This document shows positions 21,762-60,828 of a stretch of DNA of 64,000 bases, in pieces. A program made the translations under genes and the position numbers. The notes under the pieces are model-generated. The model was not told where the DNA came from and did not search any database. It worked only from the letters and a program-made list of their open reading frames with translations. The DNA lies in assembly GCA_030262725.1 (NCBI GenBank), contig JAJSZS010000005.1, forward strand, positions 1 to 64,000. The letters run 5' to 3'. The DNA comes from Candidatus Desulfofervidus auxilii. Its GTDB lineage: Bacteria > Desulfobacterota > Desulfofervidia > Desulfofervidales > Desulfofervidaceae. How positions within the stretch are numbered: position 1 is the stretch's first letter; each line of letters opens with the position of its first letter.

Positions 21762-22682
21762 TTCTTCATATACAACACAATTTCTTCCTTTTTCTTTTGC
21801 TTTATAAAGAGCATTATCAGCTGTTTTTATACTTTTTTCTATTAAGTTTTCCATTTTTATATCTAAAGAAGATTTAATACAAGTTACTCCAAGGCTTATA
21901 CTGATATTTAATCTTTGATTGTCTATTTTGAAAACATTTTCACAAATGCATTTGCGTAAACGTTCACTTGCTTTTATTGCCTTTTCTTTATCAATTTTTG
22001 AAATTATTATTAAAAATTCTTCTCCCCCATATCTTCCAAGATGGTCATATGGTCTTAAATGTGATTTTAAACGTTTTGCTATCTCTATAAGTATTTTATC
22101 ACCTATAAGATGACCATATTTATCATTAATTTTTTTAAAATGATCAATATCTGCCATAATTATGGCTAATGTATAATTTTCGCGTTTTGCACGGTGTATT
22201 TCCTCTTTTAATCTTTCTAAAATAGCCCTTCTATTTAAAATTCCTGTTAATCCATCTGTAATAGCAAGAAATTGAAGTTTTTGATTTATTTCTTTTAGTC
22301 TTTGTTCAAGGGCAATAATACGTAAGCCCACTTTAATACGAGAGAGGAGTTCTAAAGGTTCAAATGGTTTTGTCAAATAATCATCTGCTCCCGCCTCAAG
22401 ACCTGTTATAATATCTTTTTTTTCTCCTTTGGCAGAAAGAAAGATAATATAAACATAGTGATTTAGATTTGATGCTCTTATTTTTTTACACAATTTTAGA
22501 CCATCCATCTCAGGCATTATCCAATCAACAATAATTAAATAAATATTTTCTTTTTCCTTTTGAAATATTTCCCAACCTTTTTTCCCATTTTCCGCTAAAA
22601 TAATTTTATAACCTTGTTTTTCAAGTGTTTTTTTTAAAATTAAACGAGAAATAGCATCATCCTCTACAACAAGAAATTTCAT
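21753..22682 (-). CDS. Response regulator diguanylate cyclase (REC-GGDEF)
   Basis: 309-residue protein. REC domain (1-120) has the phosphoacceptor Asp in IVDWIMPEMDG (about residue 52) and KPFEP switch Lys. A short coiled coil leads to a GGDEF domain (about 145-305) with active-site GGEEF (about 219-223). An allosteric I-site RPYD lies five residues before it, so product inhibition by c-di-GMP is expected. Its start overlaps the next upstream gene, a paralogue of similar design, by 4 bp. Confidence 0.93.
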   Translation of the reverse strand: MKFLVVEDDAISRLILKKTLEKQGYKIILAENGKKGWEIFQKEKENIYLIIVDWIMPEMDGLKLCKKIRASNLNHYVYIIFLSAKGEKKDIITGLEAGADDYLTKPFEPLELLSRIKVGLRIIALEQRLKEINQKLQFLAITDGLTGILNRRAILERLKEEIHRAKRENYTLAIIMADIDHFKKINDKYGHLIGDKILIEIAKRLKSHLRPYDHLGRYGGEEFLIIISKIDKEKAIKASERLRKCICENVFKIDNQRLNISISLGVTCIKSSLDIKMENLIEKSIKTADNALYKAKEKGRNCVVYEELI

Positions 22683-23590
22683 ATTTCTTCCATTACTATT
22701 TTATTTTTTCCTCTTTCTTTCGCTTTTAAGAGGAAATTATCTGCATTTTTTATTATCTTTTGCAGTTCATCAGATGGATTTTTCACAAAATTTATTCCCA
22801 TGCTTACTGTTAAATTTATTTTTTTATCACCTATTTTAAAAGATTTTTCAGAAATAGCTTTAAAAAATCTTTTAGCAATTTTATAAGCTAAATCTTTATC
22901 TCCCTTTTTTACATTTATTCCAATCAAAAATTCATCTCCTCCATACCTTCCTACAAGGTCATAAGGTCTAATATTGTTAATAATTCGATTTGTTGTTTCT
23001 ATAAGTACTTTATCCCCTGCATCATGTCCAAACACATCATTAATCCTTTTAAAATTATCAATATCTAATAATATAACAGCAAAAGATTTTCCTTCTCGTT
23101 TGGCTCGATTTAATTCCTCTTTTAATCTTTTTAATATCCCTCGGCGATTTAGCACTCCAGTAAGTTCATCTGTTAAAGATAAGCTTTCTAAACGTTTTTG
23201 CATTTCTCTTAATTGTTTATCAACTTCAACAATTCTTGCCCCTGTTTTTATACGGGAGAGTAGTTCATGAGGGTCAAAAGGTTTAGTAACATAATCGTCT
23301 GCACCTGCATCAAAAGCTTTTATAGCATCTTCCCTTTTTTCTTTCACTGTAAGAAAAAGAATATAAACATAGCGAGAAATTTTTGCTTCTCTAATTTTTT
23401 TACAAAGTTCTAAACCATCTATCTCTGGCATGAGCCAGTCAATTATAGCCATATTGATTTTTTCCTTTTGAAATATTTCCCATGCTTCTTTACCATTTTT
23501 TGCACAAAATATTTTATAGCCTTCTCTTTTTAAAAGATTTTCTAAAATTAATTGTGTAATTTCATCATCTTCAGCAATTAATACATTCAT
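22679..23590 (-). CDS. Response regulator diguanylate cyclase (REC-GGDEF), paralogue
   Basis: 303 residues with the same REC-coiled coil-GGDEF design as its downstream neighbour. The phosphoacceptor lies in AIIDWLMPEIDG (about residue 51), the active site is GGDEF (about 217-221), and the I-site is RPYD. The many shared stretches (KNGKEAWEIFQKEK-type, SRIKxGxRI) indicate a tandem duplication. It starts 9 bp after the hybrid kinase, its probable phosphodonor system. Confidence 0.93.
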   Translation of the reverse strand: MNVLIAEDDEITQLILENLLKREGYKIFCAKNGKEAWEIFQKEKINMAIIDWLMPEIDGLELCKKIREAKISRYVYILFLTVKEKREDAIKAFDAGADDYVTKPFDPHELLSRIKTGARIVEVDKQLREMQKRLESLSLTDELTGVLNRRGILKRLKEELNRAKREGKSFAVILLDIDNFKRINDVFGHDAGDKVLIETTNRIINNIRPYDLVGRYGGDEFLIGINVKKGDKDLAYKIAKRFFKAISEKSFKIGDKKINLTVSMGINFVKNPSDELQKIIKNADNFLLKAKERGKNKIVMEEI

Positions 23591-23599
23591 TTTGACTTT

Positions 23600-26500
23600 C
23601 TAATGAAGAAAATTTTTAAAAAGATTTTCAATTATTTCAAAAAGTTTTTGTATTTTTATAGGTTTTGAAATATATGCATCCATACCAGCAGCAAGACATT
23701 CTTTTTTATCCTCTTCAAAGGCATGAGCAGTTAGGGCAATGATAGGAAGATGCTTTCCTGTGATTTTTTCCCTTTCTCTAATTGCTCTTGTAGCAGAAAG
23801 TCCATCCATTTTAGGCATCTGAATATCCATTAACACTAAATCAAAATCCTCTTTTTCTGTTATTTCAACTGCTTCTTTTCCATTATTAGCTACAGTTACT
23901 TGCCAACCTTGTTTTTCTAAAATTTTCACTATTAATTTTTGATTTACAGGATTATCTTCAGCAACGAGAATTCTTAATGGTATATTATTAAGTTTGCTTT
24001 TAATTATTTTTTTTGGTGTTTCTGTTTTCTCTCCAGAAATTGCCTCAATAATAACATTATATAATTTTGATTGTCTAATAGGTTTTATAATATAATGTGA
24101 AATGCCAAGTTCCTTTGCTTTTTTCCTTCCTTCTATACTTTCAGTAGAGGTCATAATGATAATAGGTGTTTTTTTGTAGGATTCCATTTTTTTTATTCTT
24201 TCTGCTACTTCAATACCACTTATATCTGGCATCCTTTCATCCAAAATAATGAGCTCAAAAGGTTTTTCTTTGATAGCTTCTGCTAGTTTATCTAAAGCAG
24301 AAAAGCCATCTTCTGCCTCATCAAATTCCATTCCCCAAGATTCCAATGTTTCTCTTAAAATAAATCGATTTATAGGATTATCGTCTACAATTAAAACTTT
24401 AAGTCCTTGAATATCTTTTGGAATTGTTTCTTCTTTTTCTCCCTTTGTTAGACCAAAACATGCTGTAAAATAAAAAGTACTTCCTTTACCTACTTCACTT
24501 TCTACCCAAATTTTTCCTCCCATCATCTCTATTAGTTTTTTAGATATAGCAAGTCCTAAACCTGTTCCACCATATTTACGTGTAATAGAAGTTTCTGCTT
24601 GGGTAAAACTTTCAAATATTCTTTCTTGTTTTTCCTTTGGTATACCAATACCAGTATCTGAAATACTAAATTGAAGTATTACTTTATCTTTTTCCTCTTT
24701 AATTTTCTTCACTTCAACAACAATATGACCTTTTTCTGTAAATTTAATGGCATTGCCAATGAGATTTACAAGAACTTGACACAACCTTATATCATCTCCT
24801 ATTACATAATTAGGTGTATCCTTTTTTATATGACAAAGTAATTCAAGCCTCTTTCTTTGTGCTCTTTCAGCTAAAGCAACAACAATAGATTCTACTGTCT
24901 CTCTTAATTTAAAAGGTTTCTTTTCAAGTTCAAGTTTACCAGATTCTATTTTTGAAAAATCAAGAATATCATTTATTATATTAAGGAGATTGTCAGCAGA
25001 AATCTTTAACATCTCTATATATTCTCTTTGTTCTTTTGTAAGTGGTGTATCCATAAGAAGTTCTGTCATACCAATAATAGCATTCATAGGTGTTCTAATT
25101 TCATGACTCATATTAGCTAAAAATTCACTTTTTGCCTTACTCGCTTTTTCTGCTGTCTGCTTTGCCTTAACCAATTCTGTCACATCTACCATATTTAAAA
25201 GAACTCCTTCATATTTTCCTTCTCGATAAATAGGTTGAATCCTTAAAATTACTTCTTTATCTTTAAAACGACGCTGAATAGTAACAGGAGGAGAATGTAA
25301 TCTTGTTCTAAAATTAAAGATAATTTCTCTTATATGAGTATATGCCTTTTTTGAATGTAATTCTTCAAGTGTTTTACCAATAATATTATGAGCTGATGTT
25401 CCCATAAATTTGCAAAAAAATTCATTTACTTCAGTTATTCTATTCCTCTTATCAGCAAAAACCACACCTTCTTCCATGCCCTTTAGCATTGCCTTAAACT
25501 TAGCCATCTCTTGACGCATTTCATCTTCTACTTTTTTTAATTCTTCAATAGGCTTTCCTTCTATAACACCACCAATAACTTTTCCTTCCCTATCTAAAAG
25601 AGGAGCAGTATTTGTTAAAGTTGAATAAGATTTACCATCTTTGCTAAATCCTATTATTTCAAACTCTGTTCTCTTTCCTTCTAATGCAAGAAAAACTGCA
25701 TCTTTTATAATTGCCATAGTTTCTTCACTAGGTGTAAACCAAGCTGTTTCCCAAACAGGAAGACCAATAACTTCTTCCTGTCTTAATTTACCTATTTGTA
25801 AGGCAGTTTTATTAACAAAAATAAATTTACCTTCTTTATCAAAAATACCTGCAAAATTACTCATAGAATTTAAAAGATATAAATATTTACTAAGTTCTTC
25901 TTCTTTTTTCTTTAAATCAGTAATTATTACTCCTTCTACTACTACTCCTTTAACTTTTTCTCTTTCATACATAGGAGTAATGGTCAATAAGCTCGGTATA
26001 GAACTTCCATCTTTAGAAACCACTGGCGTTTCAAAACGAATGGTTTTTCCTTCTCTAAGTACTTCTTTTACCGCTTTCTCTACTTTTTTTCTTATTTCTG
26101 GAACAAACCATCCTGTTTCCCAAAAAGGTTTTCCTAAAAAATCCTTTTCTTCAAATTTAAGCCATTCAATAACTTTTTTATTAGCAAATTGAATTTTTCC
26201 TTCTTTATCTAAGATTCCAGCAAAATTTGACATGGCATTTATAAGTTCATAACTAACTTGAACCTTTTCTTGTATTTTCTTAATTTCTGTGATATCTTCT
26301 GCTTCTGCAATTAAGTATTCAACTTCTCCCTTTTCATCAAAAACAGGAATCAAAGTAAATTGGATGGTAATGAAACCATTCTTTGTCCAAATCTTTTCTT
26401 CTGAGATGACAGTATTTCCTAAAGCTACTTTATTAATATATTGATTAATTTTTTCTTGAAGCTTTTTATCATAATTCCAAAAATGAATTTCAGAAAAATG

Positions 26501-27370
26501 TTTTCCTATAAGCTCCTTTGATTTATAACCCATTGCCTCAGCAGCAGTTTTATTGATCATAAGAATATTTCCATTTTTATCAAGCTTTGCTACAAAAGAG
26601 AAAAGACTATCAATAAATCGACGCAAATCCTCCTTTGCCTTTTCAACTTCTCTATACAATTTCTTTTGTTCTGTAATATCTCTCATAATTGTTTGAATAG
26701 CAGGTCTCCTATTATAGGTTATTTTAGAAGAAACAAGTTGTAACTCTTTTATTTCCCCTTCTTTTGGCTTAAATTTATACTCTTGTAATCCAATCTTCTC
26801 TCCTTTTATTACTTTTTGAATATTTTTTAATGCTCTTTCCCTTTCTTCAGGAAGTATAAACTCAGAAATATCTCTGCCAAGGATTTTTTCTTTAGAAAGA
26901 TTTAACATTTTTGTTAAGGCATCATTAACAAAAACAAATTTACCATCTTGAACAATAACAATAGCATCTTGCGAGCTTTCACTAAGCTGTTTATATTTTT
27001 CTTCTGATTCTTTTTGTTTTGTAATATCTCTTAAAAATATAGTTACATTAAAAACTTTACCATCTTTCTTATTTGGGAAGATAGTAATCCTAGCCCAAAA
27101 AGTTGAACCATCTTTTTTTAGTATTTGAATTTCCTCTGTTAATTCTTCTTTAAACCCTCTTTGAATGAGCTCTTTAATCTTCTCTTGTTTCTCTGATATA
27201 AAACAATCAAATATAGATTTTCCAATTAGTTTTTTTCTATCTTTTAAATCATAACCTAATATTTTAAGAATAGATGGGTTTAAATATTCAATTTTATTTT
27301 CTTTATTCAAAAGAACTATTCCATGAATGGCATTTTCTATCACAGAGCTAAGTATAAAGTCTCTTTGCAT
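23600..27370 (-). CDS. Six-PAS hybrid histidine kinase with two receiver domains
   Basis: 1256-residue cytosolic sensor; no transmembrane segment is visible. PAS domains lie at about 1-120, 121-245, 250-370, 375-490, 495-615 and 620-740. HisKA follows (about 750-815, H-box [18 protein letters not shown]), then HATPase (N box, [22 protein letters not shown]) to about 980. The receivers are at about 990-1115 ([13 protein letters not shown]) and 1135-1250 ([13 protein letters not shown]). PAS 4 and PAS 5 share MSNFAGI(L/F)DKEGK and WETxWF and are an internal duplication. It has no Hpt domain of its own; a separate Hpt gene is transcribed divergently at 27475, so phosphotransfer probably goes through it or to the REC-GGDEF proteins downstream. 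Confidence 0.93.
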
Positions 27371-27403
27371 AATTCAACCCTTAAGGATGTATTTTACATA
27401 AAA

Positions 27404-27465
27404 TCGACATTAAAAATGATTTTGTTCGGAAGATAACCGAACATAAAAGAGCATTTAACCGAATT
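27404..27465. promoter_or_regulatory. Divergent CCGAA-type upstream element with inverted repeat
   Basis: GTTCGG (27424-27429) and CCGAAC (27437-27442) form a 6-bp inverted repeat with a 7-bp spacer between the divergent hybrid kinase and Hpt genes. On each strand CCGAA is followed after 16 bp by a GCCGA-like word: ACCGA (27458-27462) forward and GTCGA (complement of 27404-27408) reverse. The same pairing with 15-bp spacing precedes the kinase genes at 56.2 and 58.0 kb, so this is a candidate promoter or operator. Confidence 0.45.
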
Positions 27466-27474
27466 AAAAGATGT

Positions 27475-27792
27475 ATGGAAATAAAGAAAAAAGCAAAAGA
27501 TTTAGGTTTAGATGAAAATGAATTTTTTGAATTAGTAAAAATTTTTTTAGAAGTTAGTATTTCTGATTTAAATAAATTACAATCTGCTTTTATTAAAAAA
27601 GATGTAAAACAAGTAGTTGAAGCAGCACATTCTATAAAGGGTGCAGCTAGCAATCTTGAATTTCAGGATATTTATGAAATTGCAAAGGGAATAGAGAAGA
27701 ATGCACTTAAGAACAAATTAAAGGGAATAGAAAAAGCAATTCAATTAATAAAAGAAAAATTAAATTTGATAGCAAAGGAATTAGCCATATGA
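27475..27792 (+). CDS. Stand-alone histidine phosphotransfer (Hpt) protein
   Basis: 105-residue helical protein with the Hpt signature AHSIKGAASNLEF (His about 43). It shuttles phosphate between receiver domains. It overlaps the next kinase gene by 4 bp and is divergent from the hybrid kinase that lacks an Hpt domain. No clear ribosome site is seen; the start at 27475 is 4 bp downstream of another, out-of-frame ATG. Confidence 0.88.
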   Translation: MEIKKKAKDLGLDENEFFELVKIFLEVSISDLNKLQSAFIKKDVKQVVEAAHSIKGAASNLEFQDIYEIAKGIEKNALKNKLKGIEKAIQLIKEKLNLIAKELAI

Positions 27793-29702
27793 AGAAAATA
27801 TTAGTAGTAGACAATCATCCTCTTATTTTACAATTTATGGTTAATTTACTTAAAAAAAGAGGATATGAAGTTTTAACAGTCTTAGATGGTCTTTCTGCTT
27901 TAGATATTCTAAAGGATTATATTCCCGATGTTATATTTATTGATTTAGTTATGCCAAATATTGATGGAAAAAGATTATGCCAAATTATTCGAAAAAATCC
28001 TGATTTGAGAAATACATATATTATTATTCTTTCCAGTATTGTTGCTGAAGAAGGGATAAATCTAGCAGAATTTGGGGCAGATGCATGTATTGCTAAAGGA
28101 CCTTTAAAGAAAATGGCAGAGAATATTCTTGCTATTTTAGATAAAATAGAAAAGAAAGAACTTGAAAAATCCCCAGAAGTCTTAGGAATTGAAGGTATCA
28201 TTCCACGAGAGATTACGAAAGAATTACTTTGGGTTAAAAAGCATTTTGAAATTATCTTAAGTAGCATGTCTGAGGGTATTTTAGAAATCACACCAACAGG
28301 AAGAATAGTTTATGCTAACCCCTTTGCCCTTTCTTTAATTTGTAAAACAGAAGAAGAATTATTAGGTTTAGATTTTATATCTTTATTTGCTCAAGAAGAT
28401 CGTCAAAGAATTAAAAGTTTACTTGAAGTAGCATCTATTGCCCCTCAAAAAATAAGTGAAGAAAATCCAGTAATATTAAATAGTAAACAAATTATTTTAA
28501 CATTTTTACCAGTTAAAGATGAGGAACATAATAGTATTATTGTCATTTTAGTTGATGTTACTGAGAAAAAGCAAATGGAAGCTAGACTTCTTCAAGCTCA
28601 AAAAATGGAGGCTATAGGCACATTAGCAGGTGGTATTGCGCATGATTTTAATAATTTGCTTATGGGTATACAAGGACATATTTCTCTTATGCTTATGAAA
28701 ATGGATGCATCTCATTGTTATTTTAAACATTTAAAAGCAATAGAAAATATGGTGAAAAGAGGGGCTGAGCTTACTAAACAGCTTTTAGGATTTGCTAGAA
28801 AGGGTAAATATGAAGTTAAATCTATTAATTTAAATGAAATAATTGAGAACTGTTTAGAAATGTTTGGACAGGTTAGAAAAGAAATAAATATTCACAAAAA
28901 TTTTCAAAAAGATATTTGGCTAGTGGAAGCAGACCGCTCTCAAATGGAACAAGTATTTTTAAATTTATTTGTTAATGCTGCAGATGCTATGCCAAAAGGA
29001 GGGGAATTATATGTTGAAACAAAAAATATTGTATTTAACGATTCTTTTAAAACAAGACCAGGGGATTATGTAAAAATTTCGATTACAGATACTGGTATAG
29101 GTATGGATGAGGCAACTCAACAAAGGATATTTGAGCCTTTTTTTACTACTAAAGAGAGAGGGAGGGGAACAGGACTTGGTCTTGCCAGTGTTTATGGAAT
29201 CATAAAAAATCATGAAGGTTTTATTACTGTTTATAGTAAGAAAGGGAAAGGAACAACGTTTAACATTTATCTGCCAGCCTCAAAAAAAGGGATACAAAAA
29301 GAGAAGACTTCTTCTAAAGAAATATTAAAAGGTAATGAGACTATTTTAATTATAGATGATGAGGAAGAAATTCTTAAAGTTACTGCAGAAATGTTAAAGA
29401 GCTTGGGATATAAAGTAATAATGGCAAATGATGGTAAAGAAGCTATAGAAATTTATCAAAAAAACAAAAAAGATATTCAGTTGGTAATTTTAGATATAAT
29501 TATGCCAGGAATGAATGGCAAAGAGATTTATGAAACATTAAGAACAATTAATCCAAAAATAAAAGTAATTATTTCAAGCGGGTATAGTTTTAATAATCAA
29601 ATAAATGAAATTTTAAAACAAGAATGCGCTGCTTTTATCCAAAAACCTTTTAGTTTAAAAGAATTATCACAAATAATTAGAAAAGTTTTGGATAAAAAAT
29701 GA
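27789..29702 (+). CDS. Hybrid histidine kinase REC-PAS-HisKA-HATPase-REC
   Basis: 637 residues: N-terminal receiver (1-120, Asp in VIFIDLVMPNIDG), PAS (about 148-265), HisKA with H-box GTLAGGIAHDFNNLLMGI (about 280-297), HATPase (about 385-505, GTGLGLASVYGI) and C-terminal receiver (about 515-635, LVILDIIMPGMNG). The H-box GIAHDFNN form is typical of soluble deltaproteobacterial kinases. It has no membrane segment. It is flanked by two Hpt genes (27475 and 29756), giving a complete multi-step phosphorelay in one transcript. Confidence 0.93.
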   Translation: MKKILVVDNHPLILQFMVNLLKKRGYEVLTVLDGLSALDILKDYIPDVIFIDLVMPNIDGKRLCQIIRKNPDLRNTYIIILSSIVAEEGINLAEFGADACIAKGPLKKMAENILAILDKIEKKELEKSPEVLGIEGIIPREITKELLWVKKHFEIILSSMSEGILEITPTGRIVYANPFALSLICKTEEELLGLDFISLFAQEDRQRIKSLLEVASIAPQKISEENPVILNSKQIILTFLPVKDEEHNSIIVILVDVTEKKQMEARLLQAQKMEAIGTLAGGIAHDFNNLLMGIQGHISLMLMKMDASHCYFKHLKAIENMVKRGAELTKQLLGFARKGKYEVKSINLNEIIENCLEMFGQVRKEINIHKNFQKDIWLVEADRSQMEQVFLNLFVNAADAMPKGGELYVETKNIVFNDSFKTRPGDYVKISITDTGIGMDEATQQRIFEPFFTTKERGRGTGLGLASVYGIIKNHEGFITVYSKKGKGTTFNIYLPASKKGIQKEKTSSKEILKGNETILIIDDEEEILKVTAEMLKSLGYKVIMANDGKEAIEIYQKNKKDIQLVILDIIMPGMNGKEIYETLRTINPKIKVIISSGYSFNNQINEILKQECAAFIQKPFSLKELSQIIRKVLDKK

Positions 29703-56197: not shown

Positions 56198-56225
56198 CCG
56201 AACTTTTTTTTAAAGATGCCGATTT
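56198..56225 (+). promoter_or_regulatory. CCGAA-N15-GCCGA upstream element (first copy)
   Basis: CCGAAC at 56198-56203, 14 bp, then GCCGATTT at 56218-56225. The GCCGA word resembles a FliA (sigma-28) -10 (GCCGATAA), and CGAA sits where the -35 TAAA would (15 bp upstream). It ends 12 bp before the kinase start, so the leader would be very short. Confidence 0.45.
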
Positions 56226-56237
56226 GTCATAAAACAG

Positions 56238-57947
56238 ATGAGTGTTATGAAGCCAATTATCCTTGTTGTTGATGATGAATATGAAACTATTCAGGTAATA
56301 AAATCTGCTCTTTCTGATGAGTATAGAATTATAACAGCAGACAATGGAAAGACAGCTTTAGAAAAGATTTCTTTAAATCCTCCTGATTTAGTGCTCCTTG
56401 ATTTATTTATGCCAGAAATGGATGGCATTGAATTTTTAAAAAAAGCTCAATCTATTTTAAATAAATATTATATCCCTGTCATTGCCGTAACAGGTTATAC
56501 TGAAGAAAGTAAGATAGAAGCCTTTTCTCTTGGCTGTTATGATGTAATTGAAAAGCCATTTCACCTTCTTCAACTCAAATTTAAGATAAAAAAAGTTTTG
56601 CAAATTAGAGAGCATCTAAAAACATTAAAGAAAAAACTTTATGAGAAAGCAGAAAGAATCAAATTAGCTTGGGAAGAGGCTAAGAGACAATCTCATTATC
56701 TCAATTCTATTATCAATGCCGTAGATGAAGGGATAAGGGTAGTGGATCTGGATTTTACCGTAAAATTAGCGAATGCAAAAATGGAGAAATTTTTTAATAT
56801 ACCGGTTTCAGAACAGATTGGCAAAAAGTGCTTTGTTTGCTCTCCAGTAAAGGATTGTCATACTCCTCTATGTCCAATAGAACGTATAAAGGTTGGTGAA
56901 ACATTGGTAAATAGAGAAGAATTCTATGGTTCACCTCAGAAAGGAGTATGGATTCATAAGTTAAGTGTACCTTTTAAAAATGAAAAAGGAGAGATTATAG
57001 GAGTGATTCAAACTTTTCATGATATTACTGCTTTAAAAAAAGTAGAAGAGGAATTGAGGGCAACAGTAGAGGAGCTAAAAAATACTCAATCATTTTTAGT
57101 GCAACAAGGTAAGCTTATGGCTATTGGTCAATTAGCTGCAGGTATTGCTCATGAGATGAATAATCCTTTGGGATTTGTTGCAAGCAATTTTAGAACTTTA
57201 AGGGAATATATAGCAGACATAAAGGAGTTATTAATTGCCTATCAGGGTTTAAGGGAGCGTTTGGAGAGGGGGGAGGGGGTTAATGGTGAGATAGGGCATA
57301 TAAAGGCAATTGAAGAGAAGGTGGATATTGAATTTATTTTAGAAGATATAGAGTCTCTTTTTAAGGATACAATGGATGGTATTGATAGACTTACTGGCAT
57401 TATTAAAAGTTTAAGGGATTTTTCAAGGATTGATCAATTAGAAGATTATACAGAATATGATATAAATGAAGGGATAAAAAGTACATTAGTTATTACCAAG
57501 AATGAATACAAATACTATGCTGAAGTAAAGACAGAATTAGGTGATATTCCTCCTATTTATTGTCATCCAAATAAAATTAATGAAGTTTTTTTAAATCTTA
57601 TTGTGAATGCTGCTCAGGCGATTGCTGGACAGAATAGGGAGGAAAAAGGGACAATTTTCATAAAGACTTTTAAAGAGGGTGAATTTGTTTATATTCAGAT
57701 TAGTGATGATGGTCCTGGTATTCCTGATGAAATAAAGGATAAAATATTTGATCCATTTTTTACTACTAAGCCACCAGGGAAAGGGACGGGATTAGGATTA
57801 AGTATTTGCTATGATATTGTTGTTAATAAACATAAAGGGCAGATTTGGGTGGAAAGTGAAGTTGGTAAGGGAACTACTTTTACTGTGAAATTACCAATAA
57901 AACCTGATTTAGATAAAGAAAATGAGAAAAGAGTAAATAATCATTAA
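56238..57947 (+). CDS. Sensor kinase REC-PAS-HisKA-HATPase (first of duplicate pair)
   Basis: 569 residues: receiver (1-125, [13 protein letters not shown]), PAS (about 150-270) with a cysteine cluster [20 protein letters not shown] (about 197-216), HisKA with [18 protein letters not shown] (about 297-314) and HATPase ending [14 protein letters not shown] (about 515-528). The cysteines are typical of a subgroup of deltaproteobacterial PAS domains and may bind a redox cofactor. Residues about 270-560 are identical to the next kinase. An ATG three codons in (MKPIIL) is an alternative start. No membrane segment. Confidence 0.92.
57044..57924 (+). repeat. 881-bp direct repeat, copy 1 (kinase transmitter half)
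   Basis: Matches 58742-59622 with a constant offset of 1698 bp; blocks compared by eye have no mismatch, including third-codon positions, and the encoded protein is identical. It ends at ATG at 57922-57924. Confidence 0.9.
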
Positions 57948-57966
57948 TAAAAAATCACTATTTGTA

Positions 57967-57991
57967 CCGAACTTTTTCTCAAAAATGCCGA
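57967..57991 (+). promoter_or_regulatory. CCGAA-N15-GCCGA upstream element (second copy)
   Basis: CCGAAC at 57967-57972, 14 bp, then GCCGA at 57987-57991, the same spacing as the copy at 56198. It lies outside the duplicated coding region and precedes the AAAGGA ribosome site at 58001-58006. Confidence 0.45.
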
Positions 57992-58013
57992 AAGATAAAC
58001 AAAGGAAATGGTT

Positions 58014-59651
58014 ATGACAAATGATGAGCAATTGAAATACAAAGTTTTATTTATTGAAGATGATAATATCTGTCAAATATGTTTTAAGCAATTTGTTAAA
58101 ACTAAAAAATTGCCATATGACTATATCATAGCAGGATCTGTTTCAGAAGCTAAGAAAATTTTAAATTCTGAGAGATTTGATGTTGTGATTATGGATTACT
58201 TACTTAATGATGGTACAGCATTTGATATTTTTGATTTAATAACGGATACACCAATCATTTTTGTTACTGGAGCTGGTGATGAAGAAGTTGCAGTTAAAGC
58301 TATGAAAAAAGGTGCATATGATTACCTAATAAAAGATCCAGACAGAAATTATCTTAAAATGCTTCCTACAGTTGTGGAAAATGCAATTAAACACAAAAAA
58401 GCAGAGCAACGTTCCAGAATTTTATCCCATGCTATTATGTGTATCAATGATAGTGTTTATATCACTGATATGGATGATAAAATTATTTTTGTTAATAAAG
58501 CATTTTGTAAAACTTATGGATATAAAGAAAAGGAAATTCTTTCACAACATAGTCGTATTCTTTGGAAGGAGGAATCCGCAAGTAATAATTTAAAAAATAT
58601 TTCAGCCAAGGAGTTTTGGCATAAAATGAAGGATGGTACTGAATTTCTTGTTTCCCTTTCCCGATCAGTAATTAAAGATGAAAATGGAAATGAAGTTGCT
58701 ATTGTTGGAGTAACTCGTGATATCACTAAACTTAAAAAAACAGAAGAGGAATTGAGGGCAACAGTAGAGGAGCTAAAAAATACTCAATCATTTTTAGTGC
58801 AACAAGGTAAGCTTATGGCTATTGGTCAATTAGCTGCAGGTATTGCTCATGAGATGAATAATCCTTTGGGATTTGTTGCAAGCAATTTTAGAACTTTAAG
58901 GGAATATATAGCAGACATAAAGGAGTTATTAATTGCCTATCAGGGTTTAAGGGAGCGTTTGGAGAGGGGGGAGGGGGTTAATGGTGAGATAGGGCATATA
59001 AAGGCAATTGAAGAGAAGGTGGATATTGAATTTATTTTAGAAGATATAGAGTCTCTTTTTAAGGATACAATGGATGGTATTGATAGACTTACTGGCATTA
59101 TTAAAAGTTTAAGGGATTTTTCAAGGATTGATCAATTAGAAGATTATACAGAATATGATATAAATGAAGGGATAAAAAGTACATTAGTTATTACCAAGAA
59201 TGAATACAAATACTATGCTGAAGTAAAGACAGAATTAGGTGATATTCCTCCTATTTATTGTCATCCAAATAAAATTAATGAAGTTTTTTTAAATCTTATT
59301 GTGAATGCTGCTCAGGCGATTGCTGGACAGAATAGGGAGGAAAAAGGGACAATTTTCATAAAGACTTTTAAAGAGGGTGAATTTGTTTATATTCAGATTA
59401 GTGATGATGGTCCTGGTATTCCTGATGAAATAAAGGATAAAATATTTGATCCATTTTTTACTACTAAGCCACCAGGGAAAGGGACGGGATTAGGATTAAG
59501 TATTTGCTATGATATTGTTGTTAATAAACATAAAGGGCAGATTTGGGTGGAAAGTGAAGTTGGTAAGGGAACTACTTTTACTGTGAAATTACCAATAAAA
59601 CCTGATTTAGATAAAGAAAATGGAAAGAAAAAAAATTCTTTTCGTAGATGA
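58014..59651 (+). CDS. Sensor kinase REC-PAS-HisKA-HATPase (second of duplicate pair)
   Basis: 545 residues from the ATG at 58014, 7 bp after AAAGGA; the ATG at 58008 is too close to that site. The receiver (1-125, [11 protein letters not shown]) and PAS (about 135-240) differ from the first kinase, while the region from about residue 244, including the coiled coil, HisKA and HATPase, is identical. It lacks the cysteine cluster in PAS. The last 32 bp overlap the start of the HDOD gene. Confidence 0.92.
58742..59622 (+). repeat. 881-bp direct repeat, copy 2 (kinase transmitter half)
   Basis: Second copy of the repeat at 57044-57924. Its last three bases are the ATG of the HDOD gene at 59620, so the repeat boundary coincides with a start codon. 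Confidence 0.9.
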
Positions 59652-60828
59652 TGAACCCCAAGTTATTCATGCCTTAAAAAGGGATTTTCGAAAATCCCCT
59701 TATCAGACTTTTTTTGCCTTAAGTGGCAAAGAAGGGTTAGAAATCTTAGAAAAAGAGGAAATAGACTTGGTAGTAGCTGATATGAAGATGCCTGAAATGG
59801 ATGGCTATGAATTTCTGCGTCAAGTAAAAATAAAATACCCAGAAATAATTTGTATTATCTTAAGTGGTTATACAGAGAGTGAAGCTGTTTATCAAGCTTT
59901 AGTTAATGGGACTGCTCGGGCTTACCTCTGTAAACCCTGGGAGAGAGAAACTCTACAGAATTACATTGACCAGCTTTTTTCCATAAAGAAATCTTTGGAA
60001 GACAAACAACTTTTACAGGTTGTTAATTCTGTTTCTTACTTACCTACATTAGGCAAACATTATCAAAGAATACTAAACCTTATTGCTGCTGGCGAGGATT
60101 TAGGAAAGATTGCTGAGGTAATAGAAGAGGATCCTGCTTTGACTATTGATGTATTAAAAGTAGCAAATTCTGCTTTTTATGGTCAGAGGATGCCTATTGC
60201 TTCTGTAAAAAGGGCAGTGGTATTACTTGGATTAAATGTTATAAAAGATATTGTCCTTTCCCTTGGTATTCTTAATAGTTTTAAAAAATTTGGGAAAGTC
60301 CGTATAGAAATTGAAAAATTTTGGGAACATGCAAACTTATGTAATAAAATGATTGGTTTTCTTTATGATACTTTTTTTAATCAAAAATTGCCTGAAGAAT
60401 TTTCTGCTGTAGGATTATTACATGATATTGGTAAATTATTTATTTTAGCATATTTTCCAGAAAAGTTTTTTCAGATAATAAAAGAGATAAAAAAATATCC
60501 TGAAATGAGTCTCAAAATAGAAAAAGAAATTATTGGTGTCCCTCATACATTACTAGGTGGTTATTTGCTTAACTGGTGGAATTTACCATATCCTATTATA
60601 GAAGTAGCTATTTTTCATCATGAACCAAATGCTCCAGGTATTACTAATAAAGAAATCAATGCCCTTGTTCATATTGCTGATTTTTATTCTTATAAAATCC
60701 TTAATGTCGAACCTTATTGCTATTTAATCCCAGAAGCATTTGATATTCTTGAAATAAAAAAAGAAGAAATTGAAGAAAAAATAGAAGAATTCTCAAATGA
60801 AGGGAAGATAAATGCAGCGGCTCCATAA
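59620..60828 (+). CDS. Response regulator with HDOD output domain
   Basis: 402 residues: receiver (1-120, LVVADMKMPEMDG with Asp about 54; the region ends LCKPWE) and HDOD domain (about 135-340) with AVGLLHDIGKLF (about 265-276). HDOD is a degenerate HD-GYP-like domain; it has no proven hydrolase activity and often acts in c-di-GMP or protein-interaction signalling. It overlaps the kinase by 32 bp and the next receiver gene by 17 bp. Confidence 0.92.
   Translation: MERKKILFVDDEPQVIHALKRDFRKSPYQTFFALSGKEGLEILEKEEIDLVVADMKMPEMDGYEFLRQVKIKYPEIICIILSGYTESEAVYQALVNGTARAYLCKPWERETLQNYIDQLFSIKKSLEDKQLLQVVNSVSYLPTLGKHYQRILNLIAAGEDLGKIAEVIEEDPALTIDVLKVANSAFYGQRMPIASVKRAVVLLGLNVIKDIVLSLGILNSFKKFGKVRIEIEKFWEHANLCNKMIGFLYDTFFNQKLPEEFSAVGLLHDIGKLFILAYFPEKFFQIIKEIKKYPEMSLKIEKEIIGVPHTLLGGYLLNWWNLPYPIIEVAIFHHEPNAPGITNKEINALVHIADFYSYKILNVEPYCYLIPEAFDILEIKKEEIEEKIEEFSNEGKINAAAP

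Follow-up and report, generated by a model that had tools for sequence, protein, structure and literature searches.

Which transcription factor reads the short element that stands in front of several two-component genes of Candidatus Desulfofervidus auxilii, and is this element a flagellar promoter? The family Ca. Desulfofervidaceae includes thermophilic, sulfate-reducing partners of archaea that oxidise alkanes, and the window analysed here is a 64-kb stretch of a genome of this family (G000) with a G+C content of 31%. The original prediction had described CCGAAC and GCCGA at an equal spacing of 14 bp before two kinase genes, copies on both strands around an inverted repeat between divergent kinase and Hpt genes, and no such pair in any other intergenic region of the window. 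A scan of both strands for CCGAA-N14..17-YCGA bears out all three points, as it returns exactly four matches: CCGAAC-N14-GCCGA at 56198-56222 (+) and 57967-57991 (+), and CCGAAC-N15-RYCGA at 27437-27462 (+) and 27429-27404 (-). Dinucleotide shuffles of the window (n=100) gave 0.20 matches on average and two at most, and none reached four. All four elements lie on the correct strand within 100 bp 5' of a gene start, a placement that applies to 4.7% of the strand-positions (P ~5e-6), and all four precede a histidine-kinase or Hpt gene at a distance of 37-59 bp (Table 1). The predicted transcription starts fall a few bases 5' of the listed start codons in three of the four genes, which would imply either very short leaders or true start codons located further downstream.

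Table 1. Predicted promoters and associated genes in the window, and further copies of the element in the genome (positions prefixed by C refer to contigs)
Feature	Location	Strand	Details
Sigma-28 type promoter (predicted)	56198..56225	+	-35 CCGAAC 56198-56203, N14, -10 GCCGATTT 56218-56225; gene 56238-57947
REC-PAS-HisKA-HATPase kinase, putative regulon member	56238..57947	+	569 aa; Pfam
Sigma-28 type promoter (predicted)	57967..57994	+	-35 CCGAAC 57967-57972, N14, -10 GCCGAAAG 57987-57994; gene 58008-59651
REC-PAS-HisKA-HATPase kinase, putative regulon member	58008..59651	+	547 aa; Pfam
REC-HDOD gene	59620-60828		3' of kinase 58008-59651, with two REC genes after it; Pfam
Sigma-28 type promoter (predicted)	27437..27465	+	-35 CCGAAC 27437-27442, N15, -10 ACCGAATT 27458-27465; gene 27475-27792
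Hpt phosphotransfer protein, putative regulon member	27475..27792	+	105 aa; Pfam
Hybrid kinase	27789-29702		directly after the Hpt gene; Pfam
Divergent sigma-28 type promoter (predicted)	27401..27429	-	-35 CCGAAC 27429-27424, N15, -10 GTCGATTT 27408-27401; gene 23600-27370
PAS-rich PAS/HisKA/HATPase/REC hybrid histidine kinase, putative regulon member	23600..27370	-	1256 aa; Pfam
REC-GGDEF gene	22679-23590		downstream of hybrid kinase 23600-27370; Pfam
Inverted repeat GTTCGG-N7-CCGAAC	27424..27442	.	-35 boxes of the two divergent promoters, back to back
Element before flagellin gene	C15:9636
Element before flgM	C7:69031
FlgM (PF04316)	C7:69086		cognate anti-sigma factor of FliA, behind the element
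Element before cheX, cheA, cheW and cheR	contig C15
Element before second cheW	contig C20
Element before another PAS kinase gene	C9:65033		CCGAAT-N15-ACCGAATT
Element before M23 peptidase gene

The element resembles sigma-28 promoters except at the -35 box

Canonical sigma-28 (FliA) promoters have the form TAAAGTTT-N11-GCCGATAA, for example those of aer and fliC in E. coli, and the flagellin, flgM and che genes constitute the classical late, sigma-28-dependent class with flagellin and flgM as its core targets. To our knowledge, the TAAAG -35 box is near-universal in sigma-28 promoters, and sigma-28 is regarded as having one and the same specificity in organisms as distant as E. coli and Streptomyces. 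Our genome-wide work consisted of pattern searches, with CCGAAN{14,16}NYCGA and then with YGAACN{13,15}NYCGANWW, and of the stretches retrieved with them. Outside the window, the element occupies the places typical of late flagellar and chemotaxis promoters, i.e. before fliC, flgM, cheA, cheX, cheW and cheR. Among 15 promoter-positioned sites of this genome, the G and both A of CCGAAC are present in every one and the last C in 14, and the spacer is N14 or N15 throughout, compared to the N14 that separates TAAAG from GCCGA in canonical promoters. The -10 consensus of these sites is GCCGATAT/A (G-C/T-C-G-A-T-A-T/A) with an invariant CGA, which is the -10 of sigma-28 promoters, and CGAA begins 19-20 bases before the -10 GCCGA at the very place of TAAA. 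This distance, together with the flagellin, flgM, cheA, cheX, cheR and two cheW targets, supports the earlier suggestion of a FliA-like -10 (GCCGA) with CGAA at the -35 position. The -35 itself is where the element departs from the sigma-28 type, as TAAAG is absent from that place in these promoters and CCGAAC is found instead; CGAAC and TAAAG differ at three of five bases. As the -10, the spacing and the target genes (flagellin, flgM and che) are all of the usual kind, the element would thus be a sigma-28 promoter in all but its -35 box.

How severe such a difference is for an ordinary FliA can be judged from the E. coli aer promoter, in which changes of TAAAG to CAAAG, TATAG and TAAAA reduce the activity from 223 to 23, 26 and 50 Miller units, respectively, at a background of about 12-23 Miller units without FliA (PMC2859248). 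Since single base changes already nearly abolish this promoter and CGAAC differs at three of the five bases, ordinary FliA should not use CGAAC.

The original prediction also implied a genome-wide enrichment of the element, and this expectation held for the position of the matches but not for their number. Six of the 22 genome matches are located on one 47-kb flagellar/chemotaxis contig that makes up 2% of the genome (expected 0.45; P ~8e-6), while the raw number of short-pattern matches in the genome showed no excess over a reversed control. Raw pattern counts over 395 genomes of the phylum were uninformative and follow the G+C content, and counts of the canonical TAAAG pattern in six close genomes were near control. 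As the raw counts do not exceed the control, position and covariation carry the argument.

Further matches concern genes of other kinds. TCGAAC-N15-TCCGATAATA lies before the gene of a small protein that resembles pilins and bears a prepilin methylation motif (C19:23218 (+), L029:4219), and the regulon of the flagellar genes may extend to this pilus gene, as in the Rubrobacter WhiG case. CCGAAC-N14-TCCGATAATA is found ~45 bp before the gene of a secreted protein in which CXXCH haem motifs occur in pairs (C1:163116-163140 (-), L031:4140), possibly a sigma-28-controlled cytochrome. Relaxed matches inside genes (C7:15313, C2:159688) are probably due to chance and were left out of consideration.

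FliA carries an altered recognition helix

The genome encodes one FliA that scores above the curated TIGR02479 cut-off (254.5 vs 189.6 bits; protein P0001), and its closest named records originate from Candidatus Desulfofervidaceae MAGs with identities of 71% and 63%. The recognition helix in region 4.2 of this protein reads AKSTVCELQTKA (A-K-S-T-V-C-E) compared to the usual TESR[VI]SQ[ILM]H, which amounts to the changes E227K, R229T and Q232E relative to the consensus. Among 108 FliA proteins of numerous phyla used for comparison, the residue aligned with T229 is arginine (108/108), that aligned with E232 is glutamine (108/108) and that aligned with K227 is glutamate or proline, whereby the variant proteins were chosen by the motif K-S-T-x-[SC]-E and the independent information at those positions is the absence of intermediates among the 108. 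The helix [EP]-S-R-[VI]-[SC]-Q of the clade is hence not matched by the variant form, K-S-T-V-[SC]-E, which is present in FliA of G000, G002, G003 and G004. Only six FliA residues are shared by all variants but seldom seen in other FliA proteins, and four of these belong to the recognition helix. Position 97 (numbering of P0001; region 3.0) is arginine in all 108 other proteins, whereas every variant has lysine there despite an almost unaltered -10.

Box and helix change together across genomes

In further genomes, the box at the correct spacing in the flagellin promoter was classed as TAAAG or CGAAC and compared to the FliA helix of the same genome. The new helix coincides with CCGAAC in five of five genomes (G000, G002, G003, G004 and G396, the latter from a second lineage), the old helix coincides with TAAAG or a one-base variant thereof in 15 of 15 (G001, G006, G008, G010, G012, G013, G022, G025, G026, G027, G031, G032, G033, G034 and G037), and mixed genomes were not found; the ambiguous flagellin promoters of G020, G007 and G038 were excluded from this pairing. 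For independent genomes, a clean split of 5 and 15 would have a chance probability of 1 in 15,504, but these genomes are not independent. CCGAAC precedes flagellin in the relatives G002, G003, G004 and G005, and for G005, a member of the same order, FliA is missing from the 82% complete assembly. The flagellin promoters of G005 (L189), G003 (L198), G004 (L187) and G002 (L192) are situated within the 3' end of an upstream ORF of ~480-510 aa, and the neighbour genes that bear the element start like glycosyltransferases.

The kinship among these genomes is addressed by two cases, which provide the sole strong phylogenetic contrasts. One is G001, which in the rpoB tree falls inside the CCGAAC clade (the family without G005, 97/98 support) as the sister of G000 (81/81). 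Its FliA possesses the old helix and stands apart from the variant clade in the FliA tree, and its flagellin promoter reads TAAAG-N14-GCCGATAA. The flagellin of G001 (C1:715421, L039) has 82% identity with its counterpart in G020, a genome related only at the level of the phylum, and 39-44% identity with the flagellins of its own family. The simplest account is that the flagellar genes of G001, together with their sigma factor and promoters, were replaced from outside, likely by horizontal transfer.

The other contrast is a lineage that was found through its FliA. The FliA loci L091 and L092, from MAGs labelled Desulfobacterales, are sisters of the variant clade in the FliA tree (100/99) and carry AKSTVSE helices. 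As these helices were seen before the promoters, CCGAAC promoters could be predicted for this lineage. In line with this prediction, the flagellin gene in the L092 genome (L258) is preceded by CCGAAC-N14-GACGAAAA, the -10 containing GACGA, and a gene for a 98-aa FlgM-like protein (L263) is preceded by CCGAAC-N14-GACGATAA. Both promoter predictions that could be made for the second lineage thus came true, on two promoters only and with GACGA in the -10.

Alternative readers of the CCGAAC box

Judged from sequence comparison, the element is very probably a sigma-28 promoter whose -35 box, formerly TAAAG, has become CCGAAC and is read by the FliA of this lineage. CCGAAC might instead be bound by an activator or repressor of flagellar genes that is particular to this lineage, at a site overlapping the -35, with FliA reading the -10 alone. 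The back-to-back inverted repeat at 27424-27442, a common form of regulator sites, would fit such a protein, but two divergent promoters fully account for this repeat, and the remaining sites are single and kept at a fixed 14-15 bp from the -10, exactly at the TAAAG place, with no TAAAG left in these promoters. Moreover, the box co-varies with FliA helix residues that are invariant elsewhere, and box and helix switch jointly in G001 and in the second lineage, which makes a separate regulator improbable. We consider it highly improbable that a different sigma factor, such as another sigma-70-family protein, reads CCGAAC: the genome indeed encodes three further proteins of this family, but these carry the standard TRERIRQ/SRERIRQ helix in region 4.2, the element has a -10 of the sigma-28 type (GCCGATAW), the targets include flagellin, flgM and che genes, and FliA alone changed along with the box.

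It is also conceivable that the flagellar sites are genuine while those before the kinase genes of the window are chance matches, a reading in keeping with the raw genome counts and with the short leaders predicted at the kinase genes. The surplus over the shuffled windows, the position of all four matches close to gene starts and before two-component genes, and the fifth kinase gene behind the element on contig C9 argue against it and render it unlikely. The variant FliA hence remains our preferred reader of CCGAAC, also at the window genes.

Proposed mechanism and implications

RNA polymerase containing the variant FliA would bind CCGAAC by region 4.2 and RYCGATAW by regions 2.4/3.0, with 14-15 bp in between, and FliA itself would read CCGAAC with no activator involved. 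The regulon would comprise the late flagellar and chemotaxis genes plus histidine-kinase/Hpt genes including the four transcription units of the window, and these kinase genes would be expressed together with the flagellum. As flgM is located behind the same promoter type, the flagellar anti-sigma checkpoint presumably applies.

Possible contacts are suggested by sigma-70, in which R584 recognises C:G at -31 and E585 the base pair at -33 (PMC2613000), and R584, E585 and Q589 are conserved residues that read the -35 (PMC8407463). In an alignment to sigma-70, K227 of the variant takes the place of R584 and E232 that of Q589. The fifth base in the CGAAC register is C, as in TTGAC of sigma-70, and a basic residue is again found at the place of R584. 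We thus infer from these sequences that K227 may recognise the final C:G pair of CCGAAC and that either E232 or T229 may recognise the G:C pair located three bases 5' of it; a glutamate facing the upstream G:C pair would match the glutamate-cytosine contact of the E585 type.

The best reading of these data would be a natural, regulon-wide shift in the -35 specificity of sigma-28, present in Ca. Desulfofervidaceae and in a second lineage. We further regard it as probable that this shift is a full re-specification, in which about three helix substitutions (E to K, R to T and Q to E) and the change of the whole regulon's boxes from TAAAG to CGAAC yielded a system orthogonal to the sigma-28 of nearly all flagellated bacteria, and that G001 regained the old code with foreign flagellar genes, which brought their own promoters and an old-type FliA. 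An alternative sigma factor present as a single copy would then have arrived, along with its regulon, at a new -35 code, with the old code in living relatives and a natural replacement in one genus. The route of such a regulon-wide change would be directly testable with a few point mutants in vitro, and the two forms are candidates for an orthogonal pair of sigma-28 systems. Flagellar promoters are searched for in genomes by means of TAAA/GCCGATAA, and the prediction of FliA regulons in these syntrophy-associated sulfate reducers needs another motif.

Comparison with known systems

ECF sigma factors possess diverse -35 specificities, and the co-divergence of sigma proteins and promoters is known from them; ECF factors are however many-copy paralogues, whereas FliA is single-copy and conserved across phyla. 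The promoters described here share with canonical sigma-28 promoters the GCCGATAA type of -10, the distance between the boxes and the placement before flagellin, flgM and chemotaxis genes, but differ in the CCGAAC -35, while changes at bases 1, 3 or 5 of TAAAG cripple the E. coli aer promoter (PMC2859248). The WhiG/flagellar sigma clade of Streptomyces and Rubrobacter is the same protein clade, and WhiG likewise runs non-flagellar regulons, e.g. pili and c-di-GMP genes (PMC8325347). TAAA/GCCGATAA is also the promoter motif of the actinobacterial WhiG branch (PMC8325347) and is retained there even with an altered regulon, whereas in the FliA of Desulfofervidaceae the -35 specificity itself appears altered. 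The closest parallel at the residue level is provided by the region 4.2 mutants of sigma-70 (R584, E585 and R588), which concern the same helix and combine a charge change at the R584 position with a change of the -31 base pair (PMC2613000). These are laboratory point mutants that relax specificity, in contrast to the change in this lineage, which would be natural and extend through the whole regulon.
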